This document shows positions 1,161 through 20,567 of a DNA stretch of 64,000 nucleotides, piece after piece (positions within the stretch are counted from its first letter, which is position 1; each line of letters begins with the position of its first letter). Made by a program: the position numbers and the translations under genes. The notes beneath the pieces were generated by a model that was not told the DNA's origin, ran no database searches, and worked only from the letters and a program-made list of their open reading frames with translations. Source of the DNA: Syntrophorhabdaceae bacterium (lineage in GTDB: Bacteria > Desulfobacterota > Syntrophorhabdia > Syntrophorhabdales > Syntrophorhabdaceae); assembly GCA_026415675.1 (NCBI GenBank), contig JAOAGQ010000060.1, positions 1 through 64,000 of the forward strand. Direction: 5' to 3'.

Positions 1161-1589
1161 ATGGCAAAAAAAGTCGTTGCGATGGTGAAATTGCAGTTAC
1201 AGGCAGGTCAGGCTACACCCTCTCCTCCTGTTGGACCGGCCCTGGGCCAGCACGGGGTGAACATCATGGAATTCTGTAAGGCTTTTAACGAGAGGACGAG
1301 ATCCCAGGAGGGGACCGTGATTCCCGCCCTGATAACCATATATTCCGACAGGACTTTTACATTTGTAACGAAGACACCCCCTGCTACATTTTTGATCAAA
1401 AAGGCGGCAAAACTCGCTAAAGGGGCAAATAACCCCAAAAAGGAGACAGTGGGAACCATTACAAAGTCCCAGGTCAGGGAGATAGCCCAGCTTAAGATGC
1501 CGGATTTAAACGCAAAGGATTTAGACAGTGCGATAAAGATCATAGAGGGTACAACAAAAAGTATGGGAATCCAGGTGGTGGAAGGGTAA
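1161..1589 (+). CDS. rplK: 50S ribosomal protein L11
   Basis: A 142-residue protein of normal L11 length that begins [20 protein letters not shown] and continues [22 protein letters not shown], both signatures of the family. L11 forms the GTPase-associated centre together with 23S rRNA and L10-L12. The ATG at 1161 has an AAGGAG ribosome-binding site. It is part of the secE-nusG-rplK-rplA unit. Confidence 0.96.
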
Positions 1590-13257: not shown

Positions 13258-14553
13258 CTACTGCACGAATTTTGGCTGTGTCTCATCGGCATCTGTATAC
13301 TTGAGCATCTTTCTGTTTTCCCCGTTAAAGAGCATAAGATGAATGTTGTACCGATTCCCTCCCCTGTTCGATGAATAGAGGATGTACCTGCCACAGGGAG
13401 AGAACTGGGGAGAGTCGTTTATCCCACCGTTTGTTAAAACCCGCTGGTTTGAGCCATCGCTATTCATTATACAGATTTCAAGGGCCCCTTCAAACTTGGA
13501 AACAAAGGCGATCAGATCACCCTTTGGTGAAAAGGCAGGGGAAGTATTATATGTGCCGGAGAAGGTAAGCCTTTTTATAGTACCGGAGGGAAGGTCCTTT
13601 AAAAAAATCTGGGGGGAACCGTGCATATCGGAGACAAAGACCATCTTTGTACCATCAGGGGAAAAGGAAGGAGAAGTGGCTATGCCGTCGCTTCTGTGAA
13701 TAACGGACTTTGTCTTCTTCTCAACGTCGTAGGAGTAGATGGTGGAGCTTTTCCCGGACGTATGGGAATAGGCAAAGAGGTTACCACCATACCAGGATGT
13801 TCCGGTCTTCATCCCTTCTTCCCTGTCCACATATACCTCTTTTCCTCTCTCCATATCCACAATGTAAAGGTTGGGCTTTCCCTCCCTGTAAGATGTATAT
13901 GCCAGATATTTATTGTTTGGTGAGACTGAAGGGGAGAGGGTGATACTTCTAAAGTCCGTCAATTTTCTCTGGTTGAAACCATCTATGTCGACCATGTATA
14001 TATCTTTTCTGTTTGTTGCCCCCGAAACAAAGAGTATCCTTGAACTCATTATACCCTTTTCTCCTGTAATCGCGAGCATGATATCATCGGATAGCCTGTG
14101 GATGAGCCTCCTCCATTCCTCCCTCCTTGTTTTATACCTCTTTGCGAGTATAAGGGAGCCATCGATCGTATCGTACAGGTAGGCCTCAAGGGTCACATCC
14201 CCATTACCCTCTATCACCCTACCCTTGCACAGTATCTCTATACCGAGGGAACGCCAGTTACTGAACTTGATCTCCTGCTTTTCTATTCCTTCTTCTGTTA
14301 GCTCTCTGTCCATAAGGGATGGGGGGGTGACTATAAAAAAACCAGATAGGTCGAGGTCTTTTGCGAGAAGCTCTCCCATGCTTGAAGGGATGTTACTTAA
14401 CTTTTCCGATTTAAATGGAGGGGCAGCGATGGTTATCCTTTTGAAGCTTTTTCCGAACACATCGAGATAAACCTTACCCTCTGCCCCCGAGGCGGCAAAG
14501 GTAAAGACTGCACATAATAAGTATATCAAAACCTTTGAGGTGAACGCCATCAA
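13258..14553 (-). CDS. tolB: Tol-Pal system beta-propeller protein TolB
   Basis: A 431-residue periplasmic protein with a cleavable signal peptide (about residues 1-26, ending near ASGAEG). An N-terminal TolB domain precedes a six-bladed propeller of WD40-like PD40 repeats (SPDGTKMVFVSD, SPKGDLIAFVSK, SPCGRYILYSS). TolB binds Pal and, in other species, TolA. No tolQ, tolR or tolA lies upstream; the next gene on this strand is the ygbA-family gene. The ATG is preceded by an AGGAGATG-type ribosome-binding site. Confidence 0.93.
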   Translation of the reverse strand: MMAFTSKVLIYLLCAVFTFAASGAEGKVYLDVFGKSFKRITIAAPPFKSEKLSNIPSSMGELLAKDLDLSGFFIVTPPSLMDRELTEEGIEKQEIKFSNWRSLGIEILCKGRVIEGNGDVTLEAYLYDTIDGSLILAKRYKTRREEWRRLIHRLSDDIMLAITGEKGIMSSRILFVSGATNRKDIYMVDIDGFNQRKLTDFRSITLSPSVSPNNKYLAYTSYREGKPNLYIVDMERGKEVYVDREEGMKTGTSWYGGNLFAYSHTSGKSSTIYSYDVEKKTKSVIHRSDGIATSPSFSPDGTKMVFVSDMHGSPQIFLKDLPSGTIKRLTFSGTYNTSPAFSPKGDLIAFVSKFEGALEICIMNSDGSNQRVLTNGGINDSPQFSPCGRYILYSSNRGGNRYNIHLMLFNGENRKMLKYTDADETQPKFVQ

Positions 14554-14649
14554 ACATCTCCTGGTCGAGTATCCTTAAAAAAATATGTCATAATCCTTTT
14601 CAATGCAAGGAAAATAAATCTCCCTCCCCTGCCATAAAAAAGGTATACC

Positions 14650-14949
14650 CTATTTTTTGAAATGTTTCAGGGCAAGGATCGGATGGTGGAAAACCATCCT
14701 CTTCCCCGAATACACCATCACCTCCCGTATCTTTTTACGCATATCCGGTTTATAGCAGTGTATCTTACATTCGCTACATTTAGGTTTCACCTCATGGGGG
14801 CATCTCTCAAGGCGTTCTTTTGCGTATTCGAGAAGGTTTTCGCAGTCTTCACAGTTCCCTGTTTTTGTTTGATGATTTCCCCGGCAGTATATCTCCACCA
14901 TCTTTCTCACTGTTTTAAGTTCTGTCTCAATGCTTCTTCTATTGATCAT
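14650..14949 (-). CDS. ygbA: YgbA-family (nitrous oxide-stimulated promoter) protein
   Basis: A 99-residue cysteine-rich protein that matches the YgbA_NO family: CRGNH, CEDCENLLEYAKERLERCPH, KPKCSECKIHCYKP, IREVMVYSGKRM and HHPILALKH. The regular Cys pattern suggests an iron-sulfur or zinc protein. In E. coli ygbA belongs to the NsrR regulon with hcp and other nitrosative-stress genes (established knowledge); its biochemistry is poorly defined. Here it starts 10 nt after the CooS-like gene, so the two are probably co-transcribed. Its own ribosome-binding site is weak, consistent with coupling. Confidence 0.85.
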   Translation of the reverse strand: MINRRSIETELKTVRKMVEIYCRGNHQTKTGNCEDCENLLEYAKERLERCPHEVKPKCSECKIHCYKPDMRKKIREVMVYSGKRMVFHHPILALKHFKK

Positions 14950-14959
14950 CCCGTTTAGT

Positions 14960-16867
14960 CTATTTAAGTCCCAGTTTTTTTCTTCTCTCTTCGATGTGGC
15001 CGATTACATTATCCACAGCCTTCATATAATCCCTCTCCACATTCATAACACCCCCTGTTAAGCCCCTTACCCCTTCTGTGAGAAAACCTACGAGATTTGG
15101 AGCCCCTGTAATTGTCGGCACAGGGTTGACATACGTGTAGAGGCCTAAGGCGAGGCTAAATATGGCATCGATAGTTGCCTTCTGTTCCATATACTCCGGG
15201 GCAACAACAGCAACAGGGAGATCAGGGATGGGTACACCCCCCATAGAAAAGGAGATAGCGGCAAGAAGGTCTGCTATACGACCCGTATCCGTACAGGTAC
15301 CAAAACTCAAAACGGGGGGTATCTTTAATAGTTCGCATAAGGCTTTAAGGCCTTCCCCTGCCTGGTCTTTTGCTTCGGGGGCACAAAGCCCGGCAACCTG
15401 CATGGCCCCATTCCCGCAGCCCATGGAAAGGACAAGCACATCCCTTTTTATGAGTTCTTTTGCCACCCTTACGGTGTGGACATCCTGACCCGAATCCCTA
15501 AGGGTGGTACATGAGACGAGGCCCACAACCCCCCTTATCGTTCCATTTGAAATTGCCTTTAGAAGAGGTTCCGGGGTTCCCCCCAGTATTTGGAGGATAC
15601 TCTCGGGGGAGTAACCTACTATAGCCTCCTTCAAAGGTAAACCCGTAACAGGGGTCACACCCTTTCTTCTCTCCTTGAAGTTTTCGATGGCCAACTCAAG
15701 GAGTGCCTTTGCCTGAACTTCCGCCTTCTCCGGTTCGTAATCGAAGCGCTCCGTTACTCCATCGAAGGATACAAGGGGAGTTACAGGTACAAGTTTAAAC
15801 CTGTATTTTTCTGCATATATGGGGTCTATGGGCATGGAACAGTTCATATCGCAGGCAAAGAGGTCTATACAACCCGAGGCAAGTATTGCCTCCTGCATGA
15901 TCCAGTTCCCTGTGAAACCGTAGAATATATCGTCCATCTCCCATCTCTGGATCATCTCCTGACCTGTCTCGATGTTGGCAATGACCCTTAATCCCTTTGC
16001 CCCTGCTGCTTTAGCCTTCTCCTGCCACTCAGGTTTTCTCGCCACATCCACCATGGCAAAACCGATGAAAGGCTCATGACCGTTGGGCAGTACATTCACA
16101 TAATCAGGGTCTAATACCCCGAGATCAACCCTCATGGGGTGGGGTTTCGGGGTTCCGAAGAGGATATCCTGACAGTACTCGTTTATAATCTGGCTCTGAT
16201 AGGCCATTGCGATGGAGAGGCGAAGCGCTTTTTTTGCAAGACTTTTATAATCCCCGTCCACATTGGTTAGACAGGAACTGGCCGCAACGAGCATCTCGCT
16301 GTATATACCCCCCGGCATGATCCCCAGCTTTTTCCAAAGGTCCGTTCTTTCCCTGGGGGCTAAGGTTTCCACAATATGGCTTGGCTCATCGTATTTCCTT
16401 GAAAAATCGACCTCAGCATAGTTACAGAGCATATAGGCCATCTCCTCGTAAGAGACGATTGTAGGTATCCCGAACCTCTCTACAAACTTTTCAAGCTTTG
16501 TCTTATCCGTTATCTTGAATGGACCCTTGCCGTCGATGGCGGCCTTTAATGTTTTTATCGTCTGCTCTGTGTGGTAGTGGTATGTGGAGGCTCCCATTAT
16601 GTTTCTTAAAAGCATCATCCTCATCGCCATACCATCGCCGGTGATACCGCAGACACCCCTTTTGTCTTTCGATACATCTGCCCTGCAGGGACCATTGGAA
16701 CAGAGGTCACATCTTACCCCTCCCTGACAGAAAGGGCATCTCTGGTCAGGGTTTTCCCCAAGACCCTGTGCCCTGTAACGGTCCCATATATTGGTTATAT
16801 TGTCTTCTTTTATCCTCTCGTACACCTTCTTTACCGATTCATGGTAAGAGATCCTCTCCTCATCCAT
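14960..16867 (-). CDS. Ni-CODH-fold (CooS-like) protein with altered C-cluster
   Basis: A 635-residue anaerobic carbon monoxide dehydrogenase homologue of full length. B-cluster cysteines are present (C53, C56, C61, C73). The D-cluster region has CPFC (C44, C47), and Arg occupies the usual second D-cluster Cys. Comparing with C. hydrogenoformans CODH-II from memory, C-cluster ligands H264, C343, C453, C484 and C525 and the catalytic Lys (K563) are kept. The Cys of GICCTGNE is replaced by Glu300 (NIETGQE). The His relay is reduced to one or two residues. CO oxidation is therefore doubtful; a hybrid-cluster-like redox role is an inference. No cooC, cooF or acs genes are nearby. Confidence 0.85.
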   Translation of the reverse strand: MDEERISYHESVKKVYERIKEDNITNIWDRYRAQGLGENPDQRCPFCQGGVRCDLCSNGPCRADVSKDKRGVCGITGDGMAMRMMLLRNIMGASTYHYHTEQTIKTLKAAIDGKGPFKITDKTKLEKFVERFGIPTIVSYEEMAYMLCNYAEVDFSRKYDEPSHIVETLAPRERTDLWKKLGIMPGGIYSEMLVAASSCLTNVDGDYKSLAKKALRLSIAMAYQSQIINEYCQDILFGTPKPHPMRVDLGVLDPDYVNVLPNGHEPFIGFAMVDVARKPEWQEKAKAAGAKGLRVIANIETGQEMIQRWEMDDIFYGFTGNWIMQEAILASGCIDLFACDMNCSMPIDPIYAEKYRFKLVPVTPLVSFDGVTERFDYEPEKAEVQAKALLELAIENFKERRKGVTPVTGLPLKEAIVGYSPESILQILGGTPEPLLKAISNGTIRGVVGLVSCTTLRDSGQDVHTVRVAKELIKRDVLVLSMGCGNGAMQVAGLCAPEAKDQAGEGLKALCELLKIPPVLSFGTCTDTGRIADLLAAISFSMGGVPIPDLPVAVVAPEYMEQKATIDAIFSLALGLYTYVNPVPTITGAPNLVGFLTEGVRGLTGGVMNVERDYMKAVDNVIGHIEERRKKLGLK

Positions 16868-16895
16868 GCTGACCCTCCTCTAAAAATGGTAAGCG

Positions 16896-16912
16896 ATAAT
16901 ATGACATTCTAT
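16896..16912. promoter_or_regulatory. Candidate operator over the cooS-like promoter
   Basis: The sequence ATAATATGACATTCTAT is an imperfect palindrome of the form ATA-N2-ATG-N-CAT-N2-TAT that covers the predicted -10 box. That position suits a repressor. I do not recognise it as a standard NsrR, HcpR or FNR site. Confidence 0.35.
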
Positions 16913-16934
16913 TACAGGATCGGTAAATATGCAA
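16906..16934 (-). promoter_or_regulatory. Predicted promoter of the cooS-like/ygbA operon
   Basis: Read on the minus strand, TTGCAT (16929-16934) and TAGAAT (16906-16911) are separated by 17 bp. The -10 differs from consensus at one base. A 17-bp near-palindrome (16896-16912) overlaps this -10. The ribosome-binding site GAGGAGGG lies 6 nt before the ATG at 16867. This is a visual prediction only. Confidence 0.5.
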
Positions 16935-16982
16935 GAAAACCCCTCCTTTTCTGATAGTCTTACCCTTCATCCTCTGGAGGGG
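16933..16982 (-). terminator. Possible intrinsic terminator of the GAPDH gene
   Basis: On the minus strand CCCCTCC and GGAGGGG (the reverse complements of 16976-16982 and 16940-16946) form a 7-bp GC-rich stem with a long 29-nt loop. It is followed by TTTTCTT. The long loop makes it a poor terminator. It abuts the next promoter, and the strong bases also fit a simple read-through barrier. Confidence 0.35.
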
Positions 16983-17043
16983 AAGTCCTATCAAAATTTC
17001 TACAGGGGTGCATCCCCTTTACGTTAAAAAATCCTGTCCTCTC

Positions 17044-18318
17044 TCAACAGCATGTATTCTTATGGATATAGACGGTGAGATCCCCCATCCTGTTTGTATA
17101 ACTTCCGTATTCGTTGTCGTACCACCCGAATATCTTTGCGTGGACAACGGGAATCCTTATATTACCTATGGCCTTCACGGTATCTACGGTAAGACCCGGG
17201 ATCTGGGCGAGGTCTAATTCTATGAAGGCTGTCCTCGTGTGGTTAAACTGACCTTCTATCACAATGGCTGCATCCACGCCTATCATATCGGATGAGACGT
17301 TCTGGGAGTCTGTATATATAAGGAGATGTTCGGGATCCTCCTCGTAGGCCCTTTTGTAGAGGTTATTAATTACCTTTGTGTTCACCTCAAGGGTTTTGCC
17401 ATCTTTGTCCTGTAAAAGCTGGAATGTGATATTGAGCACAATGAGGGATTCGGTATTAATAGGCACCCTTATCGAGTCTGCCATAAAACCAATGGACTTT
17501 ACCTCTGGGATCACCTGGGTTAAAGCCTCTGCCGCATTTGTTGAGGTGAGGATGATGTTGTTCAGGATGCTTCTACTTTTTCTTAAGTCCTTCTCCCCAT
17601 CTTTTGGAACACTGTCCAGTACGCTCTGGGAATTCGTCACCGCATGCACCGTTGACATGGATGCCGTTAAGATTTTGCTTGTAGCCTCATAATTTATTAA
17701 TGGCTTAACCATATGGGCAAGCCCTGTTGTAGTGCACGATGCCGCTGAGACAAGTCGGTGGACATTTCTGTCAAAGGCATGGTGGTTTATCCCGTATATC
17801 AAAGTAGTTGCATCTTCGGGCATGGATAAGGCCTTGTTTTTTATTTTAAAGGCCGACGAATTTATCACCACCTTTGCCCCCCTTGAGAGGTGTCCCCTTA
17901 TCGAGCCTTTCTTGTCATCAGAGGGTACGGTAGGATCCCGGAACTTCCCCGTACAGTCTACAACCACATCGATGCCATAGTCCCGCCACGGTATCTCTGC
18001 TGGGTTTCTCGATTCCGTAAGGACCGTCACAGGGATCCCATCTATCAAAAGCTTACCTTTTTTATCGTCTACAATCTGTATGATCCTCGATGAGTTTACA
18101 CCGTACAAAAACCTGTGAATGGTCCCGTAGGTGGAGTCCTTCTCTATCATCTCTGCCACATCCGCCATCCCTCTCCCTATACCCCTTCCCTGGTTTATAA
18201 CGATCTCTTTAAAGTACTTCCTCCCTATATGATGCCAGAGGGTTAGCTTTCCTATACGTCCCATACCGTTTATCCCGAGGATGGGTGGTCTGTTCTCGAA
18301 GATCTCTATTTTGCTCAT
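17044..18318 (-). CDS. gap: Glyceraldehyde-3-phosphate dehydrogenase, long variant
   Basis: A GAPDH of 424 residues, longer than the usual 330-340. The N-terminal Rossmann motif is GINGMGRIGK (residues 15-24), the catalytic Cys is in SAASCTTTG (C195) and the partner His in STVHAV (H225). The substrate-binding Arg of the RSILNNII segment and the C-terminal WYDNEYGSYTNRM are present. The extra length comes from insertions, for example around residues 42-60. It interconverts G3P and 1,3-bisphosphoglycerate in glycolysis or gluconeogenesis. It is not beside pgk or tpi. An AGGAGG site precedes the ATG. Confidence 0.85.
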   Translation of the reverse strand: MSKIEIFENRPPILGINGMGRIGKLTLWHHIGRKYFKEIVINQGRGIGRGMADVAEMIEKDSTYGTIHRFLYGVNSSRIIQIVDDKKGKLLIDGIPVTVLTESRNPAEIPWRDYGIDVVVDCTGKFRDPTVPSDDKKGSIRGHLSRGAKVVINSSAFKIKNKALSMPEDATTLIYGINHHAFDRNVHRLVSAASCTTTGLAHMVKPLINYEATSKILTASMSTVHAVTNSQSVLDSVPKDGEKDLRKSRSILNNIILTSTNAAEALTQVIPEVKSIGFMADSIRVPINTESLIVLNITFQLLQDKDGKTLEVNTKVINNLYKRAYEEDPEHLLIYTDSQNVSSDMIGVDAAIVIEGQFNHTRTAFIELDLAQIPGLTVDTVKAIGNIRIPVVHAKIFGWYDNEYGSYTNRMGDLTVYIHKNTCC

Positions 18319-18555: not shown

Positions 18556-18783
18556 TCATAACTCCCTGAACTCGTTTATCGGGACAAGCTCAGAGAGGGC
18601 AGCCTTCACCCTGTCCTTATCTTCGGTTAAAAATCTCACGCATACACCACAGTCTGAACTTATACTCCTCGGGACGGGGATCACCTTATGGGGTATACCT
18701 GCCTTTTTAAGTATCTTTTCCGCCTTTATAACATGGCCTACAGAGACAAAAAGGGCTACCGAATACCTCTCTTCCTTGTTCAA
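18556..18783 (-). CDS. DUF3343 putative Se/S carrier-like protein
   Basis: A 75-residue protein that fits the DUF3343 (putative Se/S carrier) family: RYSVALFVSVGHVIKAEKILKKAGI, KVIPVPRSISSDCGVCVRF. The CGVC pair is the likely persulfide or perselenide carrier site. It overlaps the yedF stop by 4 bp, so the two are translationally coupled. Partnering with a cysteine desulfurase and YedF is a known arrangement and suggests it receives S or Se from them. The final acceptor is unknown. Confidence 0.85.
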   Translation of the reverse strand: MNKEERYSVALFVSVGHVIKAEKILKKAGIPHKVIPVPRSISSDCGVCVRFLTEDKDRVKAALSELVPINEFREL

Positions 18784-19379
18784 GGTTTCACAATCCTCCC
18801 TGCCGTTAAAAGGGTGGTGGCTATTGTGTACATATTCGAGATTGTCCCTATGGATATTTTGTTCTGGATATTAAAATAGTTGACACACGTACCGCAGATA
18901 AGGATCTTTATGCCCATACCTTCCAGTTCTTTTAAATCGTCGGCTACCCCGGAGTCTGAGGTCGTAAGCATTACCCCCTTATTGTAGAACACCATTATAT
19001 CGGGCTTATTATCCAGTTCTCTTAACGTATGGATATAGGCCTTCATCAGAATGGCCCCGAGTTCATCGTCTCCGTGTCCCATTATGTTAGACGTAAAGAG
19101 TATGACCATGGGCCCCGAACTGTTGCCGCATATTTCACTTTTTGGTGGCTCCGCCGAGGATAATCGGGTCGATCTTTTAATCTCTATTCTATAGGTACTA
19201 TCCGCCTCTTCATTTACATTGATGGTACACCCCATGCTTACCGCAAGGCGCTCCACATTCTCCAGGGCCGTTTCGTTATCCACTAAGACCACGATTTCAT
19301 CCTTTCTATGGAGGGCCTTTTTTGTAAGGACAACAGGTTCAGGACACGATAGACCCCTCGCATCGATTATATCCGCCAT
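18780..19379 (-). CDS. yedF: Sulfurtransferase-like selenium metabolism protein YedF
   Basis: A 199-residue two-domain protein. Residues 1-70 are TusA-like with the RGLSCPEPV motif (active Cys12). Residues about 88-199 are DsrE-like with a CGTC motif (C162, C165), giving two thiol sites on one chain. In selenium-using bacteria this family occurs with selenium-trait genes. It lies between the desulfurase (9 nt upstream) and the Se/S carrier. A relay of S or Se from desulfurase to YedF to carrier is inferred. Confidence 0.88.
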   Translation of the reverse strand: MADIIDARGLSCPEPVVLTKKALHRKDEIVVLVDNETALENVERLAVSMGCTINVNEEADSTYRIEIKRSTRLSSAEPPKSEICGNSSGPMVILFTSNIMGHGDDELGAILMKAYIHTLRELDNKPDIMVFYNKGVMLTTSDSGVADDLKELEGMGIKILICGTCVNYFNIQNKISIGTISNMYTIATTLLTAGRIVKP

Positions 19380-19388
19380 AATGTCCTC

Positions 19389-20567
19389 CTACCTTTCTCG
19401 ATTATAATATGTTTTTGCGATCTCTTCTATCGCCTTTATGCCATAGAGGATCTCTTCCTCTGTGTTGAAGAACCCGAAAGAGAAACGAACGGTGCCCTGG
19501 GGAAACGTACCTATGGTTCTATGGGCCGATGGGGCACAGTGGAGCCCCGGTCTCACCATTATCCGATATTTTTCATCGAGTTCAGAAGAAATATCGGAGG
19601 GGCTTACACCTCTTATATTGAAGGAGACGGTGCCAGTCCTTCTACTTGGATCATCTACCCCGTAAAGCATAACCCCCTCTATCCCCTTTAAACCATCAAG
19701 AAATATCTTTGTCAGGGTTTTTTCTCTTGCTCTTATCCGATCCACCCCCTGCCCGAGGACGAACCTAACACTTGCCGCAAGCCCCGCAAAACCTATGCCG
19801 TTTGGGGTTCCTGACTCATACTTATCCGGGAGAAAATCGGGCTGTCTCTCAAATTCTGAGGCACTCCCCGTACCTCCCATCATCAAAGGAGACAAAAATT
19901 CCTCCAACCCCTTTCTTAAATAAAAACCCCCTGTACCCTGCGGTCCATATAGGGATTTGTGGCCAGAGAAACATAGGATATCTATCCCTACCTTTATCAC
20001 GTCTATCTCTCTATTCCCTATCGTCTGGGCTGCATCAACGAAAAAGAATATACCATGTTCTTTGGCCACCCTTGCAATCTCTTCTATGGGCATAACTGTT
20101 CCTGTTACATTCGAGGCATGGGTGATAGCTATCATTTTTGTATGTTTATTGATTGCACCCCTTATATCATCAAGATCTATCTCCCCGGAAGGGGAACACA
20201 AAACTGTCGATACGGTTACACCCTTTGTTTCGAGAAATCGAAGGGGTCTCATAACAGAGTTATGCTCCATACTCGATGTGATCACATGGTCCCCTTGCTT
20301 CAAAAGTCCCATAAGACAACAGTTAATCCCTTCCGTTGCGTTTTTAGTCAGTATGATAGATAATGGGTCAGGGGCATTTATGAGTTCGCATATCAGTTCC
20401 CTTGTTGAGTAGATTACCCTTGCCGCCTCTATTGATAACCTGTGTCCTGAACGGCCAGGGTTTGCCCCTATAGAATCGTTGAAAGCCACCATCGCCTCGA
20501 TCATTTCCTTTGGTTTGGGCCATGTTGTGGCTGCGTTGTCGAAGTATATTAAACTTTCCCCATCCAT
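19389..20567 (-). CDS. Cysteine desulfurase-family PLP enzyme
   Basis: A 392-residue class V aminotransferase-fold protein. The PLP lysine is in CFSGHKSLYGPQG (K204), with ASNVTGTVMP, a FFVDAAQTIG motif and a catalytic Cys in RPGLHCAPSAH (C344). This matches the cysteine desulfurase subfamily commonly found beside YedF and DUF3343. It would remove S from cysteine, or Se from selenocysteine, and load a Cys persulfide. The ATG follows AGAGGA. The gene is preceded by a long leader with a terminator, which implies transcript-level control. Confidence 0.87.
   Translation of the reverse strand: MDGESLIYFDNAATTWPKPKEMIEAMVAFNDSIGANPGRSGHRLSIEAARVIYSTRELICELINAPDPLSIILTKNATEGINCCLMGLLKQGDHVITSSMEHNSVMRPLRFLETKGVTVSTVLCSPSGEIDLDDIRGAINKHTKMIAITHASNVTGTVMPIEEIARVAKEHGIFFFVDAAQTIGNREIDVIKVGIDILCFSGHKSLYGPQGTGGFYLRKGLEEFLSPLMMGGTGSASEFERQPDFLPDKYESGTPNGIGFAGLAASVRFVLGQGVDRIRAREKTLTKIFLDGLKGIEGVMLYGVDDPSRRTGTVSFNIRGVSPSDISSELDEKYRIMVRPGLHCAPSAHRTIGTFPQGTVRFSFGFFNTEEEILYGIKAIEEIAKTYYNRER

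Follow-up and report, generated by a model that had tools for sequence, protein, structure and literature searches.

The question raised by this locus is whether a protein with the fold of carbon monoxide dehydrogenase (CODH), encoded directly ahead of a gene of the nitrosative-stress family ygbA, could do the job of Hcp with YgbA as its partner, as an original prediction from the DNA had proposed. Both genes lie on the minus strand of the window, i.e., the whole stretch of 64,000 nucleotides that was analyzed. The cooS gene occupies positions 14960..16867 (635 amino acids) and the ygbA-family gene (YgbA_NO) positions 14650..14949 (99 amino acids), with 10 nt between the cooS stop and the ygbA start (14950..14959, minus strand). 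Gene calling by simple ORF rules reproduced both reading frames, their coordinates, their common strand and the gap, which is short enough for translational coupling to be possible.

With regard to its family, the CooS protein scored 716 bits against TIGR01702 (CODH catalytic subunit) and 457 bits against PF03063. Its closest solved structure was 7b7q, the CooS-V protein of Carboxydothermus hydrogenoformans, which scored 672 bits compared to 390 bits for the next CODH and has 50% identity over the full length. The altered ligand noticed in the original prediction was confirmed: Glu300 replaces the first cysteine of the C-cluster (Cys295 in CODH-II), and this glutamate is shared by the Carboxydothermus protein. 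The other C-cluster ligands are H264, C343, C453, C484 and C525, the B-cluster comprises C53, C56, C61 and C73, and the D-cluster is of type III (C44xxC47x5C53, as defined in PMC6344411). In addition, Tyr96 aligns with and replaces the acid-base His of canonical CODHs, and Lys563 is kept, with Glu561 two residues ahead of it. The residues E300, H264, C343, C453, C484, C525, Y96 and K563 were invariant in an alignment of 112 CooS-V sequences, in which some genomes are present twice. All sequence marks of structural group D-1 (PMC6344411) were found and, judged by its sequence, the product is a CooS-V protein of this group and not a new kind of enzyme.

In CooS-V, the exchange of Cys for Glu gives rise to an Fe/S/O hybrid cluster (PMC9311411), and, from homology to this solved relative, the protein encoded in the window very probably holds a hybrid cluster like that of Hcp. 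Since this chemistry has already been described, a CODH scaffold with Hcp-like activity (Jeoung 2022; Inoue 2019) is not the new system that had been envisaged. The Carboxydothermus enzyme neither oxidizes CO nor reduces CO2 and turns hydroxylamine over slowly (PMC9311411); its midpoint potentials are ~300 mV more negative than those of E. coli Hcp, and differing physiological functions were suggested for both proteins (Jeoung 2022, PMC9311411). The Hcp models TIGR01703 and NF003658 did not match the window CooS, which was recognized by TIGR01702 and, weakly, by cdhA only. A score above the CODH equivalog cut-off of TIGR01702 would fit a regular Ni-CODH in which the ligand exchange is tolerated. 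This explanation is nevertheless very improbable, considering that both the Glu for Cys and the Tyr for His are invariant in the 112 relatives, that CO activity is missing in the solved relative (PMC9311411), and that no CO genes were found close to the pair, as had been noted at the outset, while a separate CODH of the host genome adjoins a CODH/ACS-type gene on another contig (C34).

The YgbA assignment was likewise upheld, with 128 bits against PF11756 (cut-off 25) and all seven family-invariant cysteines present (C22, C33, C36, C50, C58, C61 and C65). The nearest relatives among the sequences compared, at 50–53% identity, came from other families of the phylum, and the protein belongs to another subtype than the divergent YgbAs of its own order (49–67 bits). 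Its AlphaFold model (pLDDT 83) comprises four predicted helices; no PDB match was obtained at E ≤ 0.001, and no solved relative was found. The ygbA gene is known as a member of the nitrous oxide-stimulated promoter family and of the enterobacterial NsrR regulon, with no known function reported for it in PMC2884951.

As context, the pair is flanked by a GAPDH-like gene (17044..18318, minus strand), located 176 nt 5' of cooS-V, and by a TolB-like gene (13258..14553, minus strand; named by inspecting its translation) starting 96 nt beyond ygbA. Because both neighbors share the strand of the pair, it is not clearly an isolated operon or transcription unit. The region 5' of the pair (16868..17043, minus strand) carries a ribosome-binding site before cooS-V; neither an Rfam family, a significant fold nor an HcpR-type palindrome was found in it, and no terminator-like site was reported between the GAPDH-like gene and cooS-V. 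The one promoter predicted upstream of the pair was not recovered: a sigma-70 scan of positions 14500-17100 gave no match on the minus strand, and the four matches on the plus strand were at chance level (3.6 expected). The nearest promoter-like candidate by eye, TTGCAT-17-TAGAAT, matched at 8 of 12 bases. Elsewhere in the window (18556-20567), a same-strand set of genes encoding a class-V aminotransferase that resembles cysteine desulfurases, a TusA/DsrE protein and a putative Se/S carrier (PF11823) looks like a selenium/sulfur trafficking set.

The original prediction had called for a search across genomes for ygbA paired with Glu-variant CooS, and among the genomes and loci covered, this pairing was found in the window's genome only. 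YgbA was present in 30 and CooS-V in 11 of 198 genomes of the phylum, and in 71 and 22, respectively, of 395 genomes; in both sets, the window's genome was the only one with both. This single co-occurrence compares with ~4 expected in the 395 genomes (P(≤1) = 0.07), and YgbA and CooS-V show no mutual attraction at the genome level. Within the order (46 genomes; YgbA in 6, CooS-V in 25), both were present in three genomes, namely that of the window, G225, in which the two genes are located on different contigs, and G236, in which they are ~16 kb apart. No YgbA gene was detected at other CooS-V loci, neither within flanks of up to 6 kb at 80 contig loci nor within 1.5 kb at ~30 whole-genome loci, the genomes of both sets partly overlapping and some flanks ending at contig ends. 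These 80 loci are those that scored best among at least 389 candidate stretches, mostly with ≥70% identity, with Bacillota and more distant CooS-V outside this sample. YgbA occurred anywhere in the genome in 2 of 50 distant CooS-V genomes. In the Syntrophorhabdaceae, a gene for an MFS transporter usually lies directly 3' of CooS-V (among others, at L075, L077-L081, L083, L086 and L104). A conserved ygbA-CooS-V two-gene system was hence rejected for the genomes and loci sampled.

Adjacency of both genes by chance would be met in about 1 of 2,500 genomes according to a rough estimate, and a single case encountered by browsing is no evidence of selection. An insertion or shuffling of ygbA into its place behind cooS-V, with no joint function of the two proteins, is a serious possibility, to which we give just under even odds. 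It is favored by the confinement of the pairing to one genome, by the deviating subtype of the YgbA protein and by neighboring genes that are unrelated and on the same strand. The 10-nt spacing, however, suggests co-translation, and the two families have a neighborhood partner in common, as described below.

The second check that had been put forward, i.e., the absence of hcp from genomes with this pairing, had a negative outcome. The host genome encodes a full-length Hcp (NF003658, 829 bits) with a ferredoxin gene next to it, on a contig separate from cooS-ygbA, and among the 25 genomes with CooS-V in the order, 24 have Hcp or an Hcp fragment; absence of hcp from the host or its order was thus rejected. 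In the host and in seven other genomes, a palindrome TTGA(T/C)(C/T/A)TAAGTCAA (one variant starting with TTAA) was found 5' of hcp. It agrees with the HcpR consensus of delta-proteobacteria, wyTTGACnnnnGTCAArw (PMC1274295), and the site at hcp-frdX of the host is a perfect one. Furthermore, the host encodes an HcpR-like regulator with 49% identity to that located beside hcp-frdX-ygbA in a relative (L156), where a divergent HcpR-like Crp/Fnr gene lies 5' of hcp. An idea that CooS-V stands in for a missing Hcp in the host, with YgbA as partner, would be in line with the Hcp-like active site, the adjoining ygbA gene and the distant genomes with CooS-V and FrdX, most of which are without Hcp. It is contradicted for the host by the complete hcp-frdX operon with its perfect site and putative regulator, and for the order by the near-constant presence of Hcp or a fragment of it, and we regard it as improbable.

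As to regulation, for which all statements are motif-based, no HcpR-type site was found 5' of cooS-ygbA, where the best score was -1.7 bits compared to 18–25 bits at the hcp sites of the host and relatives. The pair is therefore outside the predicted HcpR regulon. At other CooS-V genes, HcpR-type sites were detected in 3 of 110 cases: at -79 (L044) and -82 (L043) in two genomes from one other family of the same phylum, and at -136 in a member of the Desulfobacterales (L122), the latter between divergent genes. Given that ~0.7% of the other promoters reach the same score, these sites are suggestive only. Genome-wide, the motif with at most one mismatch occurred in the host at hcp, at L191, where a small Cys-rich protein is encoded, and at a third site. 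At L191 (G000:C32:10372; ORF 1183-1440, minus strand), the palindrome has one mismatch and lies shortly 5' of the gene for this 85-aa protein, which in a 65-residue alignment shows 62% identity to the N-terminal part of HD-domain proteins encoded close to CooS-V/FrdX in other phyla.

The ferredoxin gene that follows hcp in the host served as reference for FrdX, the ferredoxin encoded in the hcp operon under HcpR control (Rodionov 2005, PMC1274295); this identity is based on homology and on genomic context, the gene following hcp in an operon with an HcpR-type site. With adjacency counted at CooS-V loci only, a FrdX homologue was encoded near CooS-V at 24 of the 80 top-scoring loci out of at least 389, on the same strand in all 24 (L089, L091, L092, L096, L100, L106, L107, L108, L113, L116-L118, L121, L129-L132, L134-L136, L141, L144, L147 and L151). 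FrdX was labeled by its C-terminal, non-ferredoxin part only, into which the matches extend with 73-153 bits, as a whole ferredoxin query could catch any Fer4 protein. It lies 5' of CooS-V in 15 loci and 3' in 9, at distances between aligned parts of 22 nt to 2.8 kb, mostly <600 nt. Since both gene orders were seen, the two genes probably came together on several occasions. In a tree of FrdX sequences, those linked to hcp formed one group (91/80) and those linked to CooS-V were placed in several. The hosts include WOR-3, Chloroflexota, Asgard archaea, Thermoplasmatota, Methanofastidiosum, Methanophagales and others. No FrdX gene was found beside CooS-V in the window's genome and family. An Hcp match (E ≤ 1e-40) was missing in 23 of the 24 FrdX-CooS-V genomes and in 47 of the 50 distant CooS-V genomes tested, figures that cover CooS-V carriers only. 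Cupin genes also recur beside CooS-V, and Rrf2-type regulators do so in a few loci; identification of such a gene as NsrR was rejected, the representative at L118 matching at the superfamily level only (38 bits; NsrR cut-off, 182).

YgbA, for its part, is encoded third in an hcp-frdX-ygbA operon in two relatives (L156 and L213), next to frdX as ygbA-frdX in L216-L219, and beside frdX in L152. With CooS-V linked to frdX and YgbA linked to frdX and hcp, both share a neighborhood partner more than random genes would. The partnership with YgbA proposed at the outset thus finds some backing in these gene sets, but for CooS-V it is confined to one genome. Similarly, the Hcp-like role assigned to the CODH-fold protein is in keeping with the described chemistry of CooS-V (PMC9311411) and with the FrdX linkage, but the presence of Hcp and the missing HcpR-type site speak against it in its original form. 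Among the papers searched, those that name both frdX and carbon monoxide dehydrogenase appear to concern other topics.

Taking together the protein family, the ligand set, the genomic distribution and the FrdX linkage in other phyla, as observed here, the repeated location of CooS-V next to FrdX points to an Hcp-like redox job. Our preferred reading, to which we assign a probability of about 0.5, is that CooS-V is an Hcp-like, FrdX-fed nitrogen-oxide reductase, or otherwise an enzyme of nitrosative or redox stress, that in the window's genome works beside Hcp, with a local link to ygbA. In mechanistic terms, the homodimeric CODH scaffold would have exchanged its Ni,Fe C-cluster for the Fe/S/O hybrid cluster through the Cys-to-Glu substitution. 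Electrons from a FrdX-type 2x[4Fe-4S] ferredoxin, the presumed donor, would pass via the D- and B-clusters to the hybrid cluster, at which the putative substrate, a small oxidized nitrogen compound such as hydroxylamine, NO or a related species, may be reduced or bound; alternatively, CooS-V might buffer nitrosative or redox stress in another way. In the host, it would act alongside Hcp and not in its place. For the position of ygbA 3' of cooS-V, the best reading is a local event in this lineage and not a conserved system: the gene would have been gained or relocated there, and co-expression is possible. Slow hydroxylamine turnover, the ~300 mV lower potentials, the CooS-V of the family being without FrdX, the missing HcpR-type site 5' of cooS-ygbA, the rarity of such sites at CooS-V and the lack of attraction between YgbA and CooS-V at the genome level count against the preferred reading.

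CooS-V is also common in anaerobes and methanogens that are not known to meet much NO. This would be in line with a low-potential enzyme acting on another substrate, or a redox sensor, with FrdX as a general partner and an indirect link to nitrosative stress, as would the low midpoint potentials (PMC9311411) and the designation of clade D CODHs as regulatory/redox-sensing (PMC13056359). However, the FrdX found here belongs specifically to the hcp-encoded family, as judged by its C-terminal part, and frdX knockdown in C. difficile causes NO sensitivity (PMC12915319); we consider such a role rather unlikely. A broader proposal, in which CooS-V with FrdX would be a widespread stand-in for Hcp-FrdX in anaerobes without Hcp (Asgard archaea, WOR-3, Chloroflexota, methanogens), with a CODH scaffold turned into an NO/hydroxylamine reductase that depends on FrdX, and with YgbA joining either version now and then as an accessory, is put forward tentatively and must be regarded as doubtful.

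The ygbA-cooS-V pair of the window is by itself of little weight; the weight lies with the CooS-V-FrdX link and its bearing on the function of Ni-CODH clade D, to which CooS-V belongs and for which a recent survey of CODH contexts saw no clear neighborhood pattern and left the clade undiscussed (PMC13056359). A deletion of the clade D gene in Clostridium autoethanogenum is cited in the same survey, and a Methanolobus is one example of a cultured host of CooS-V. With its measured NO phenotype, FrdX provides a concrete, testable electron donor and pathway for CooS-V, and this link, if true, would explain nitrogen-oxide handling in anaerobes without Hcp.

Compared with known systems, the window CooS resembles Carboxydothermus CooS-V (7b7q) in its type III D-cluster, the Glu for Cys, the Tyr for the acid-base His and the lack of C1 genes nearby; it differs in the ygbA gene on its 3' side, in its host, a Syntrophorhabdaceae-like draft genome of 75 contigs, and in being known here from sequence. 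With Hcp (TIGR01703/NF003658) it has in common the fold family PF03063, Hcp-like active-site residues and, elsewhere, the FrdX partner, whereas it is built on a CODH scaffold, matches no Hcp model, lacks an HcpR-type site and belongs to a kind with ~300 mV lower potentials (PMC9311411). The delta-proteobacterial hcp-frdX operon (Rodionov 2005, PMC1274295) is present in the host with its conserved palindrome, on a separate contig and without the third gene, ygbA, that it carries in the two relatives. Finally, the YgbA of the window shares the PF11756 family and the seven invariant cysteines with ygbA of the enterobacterial NsrR regulon, and unlike the latter, its gene sits behind cooS-V.
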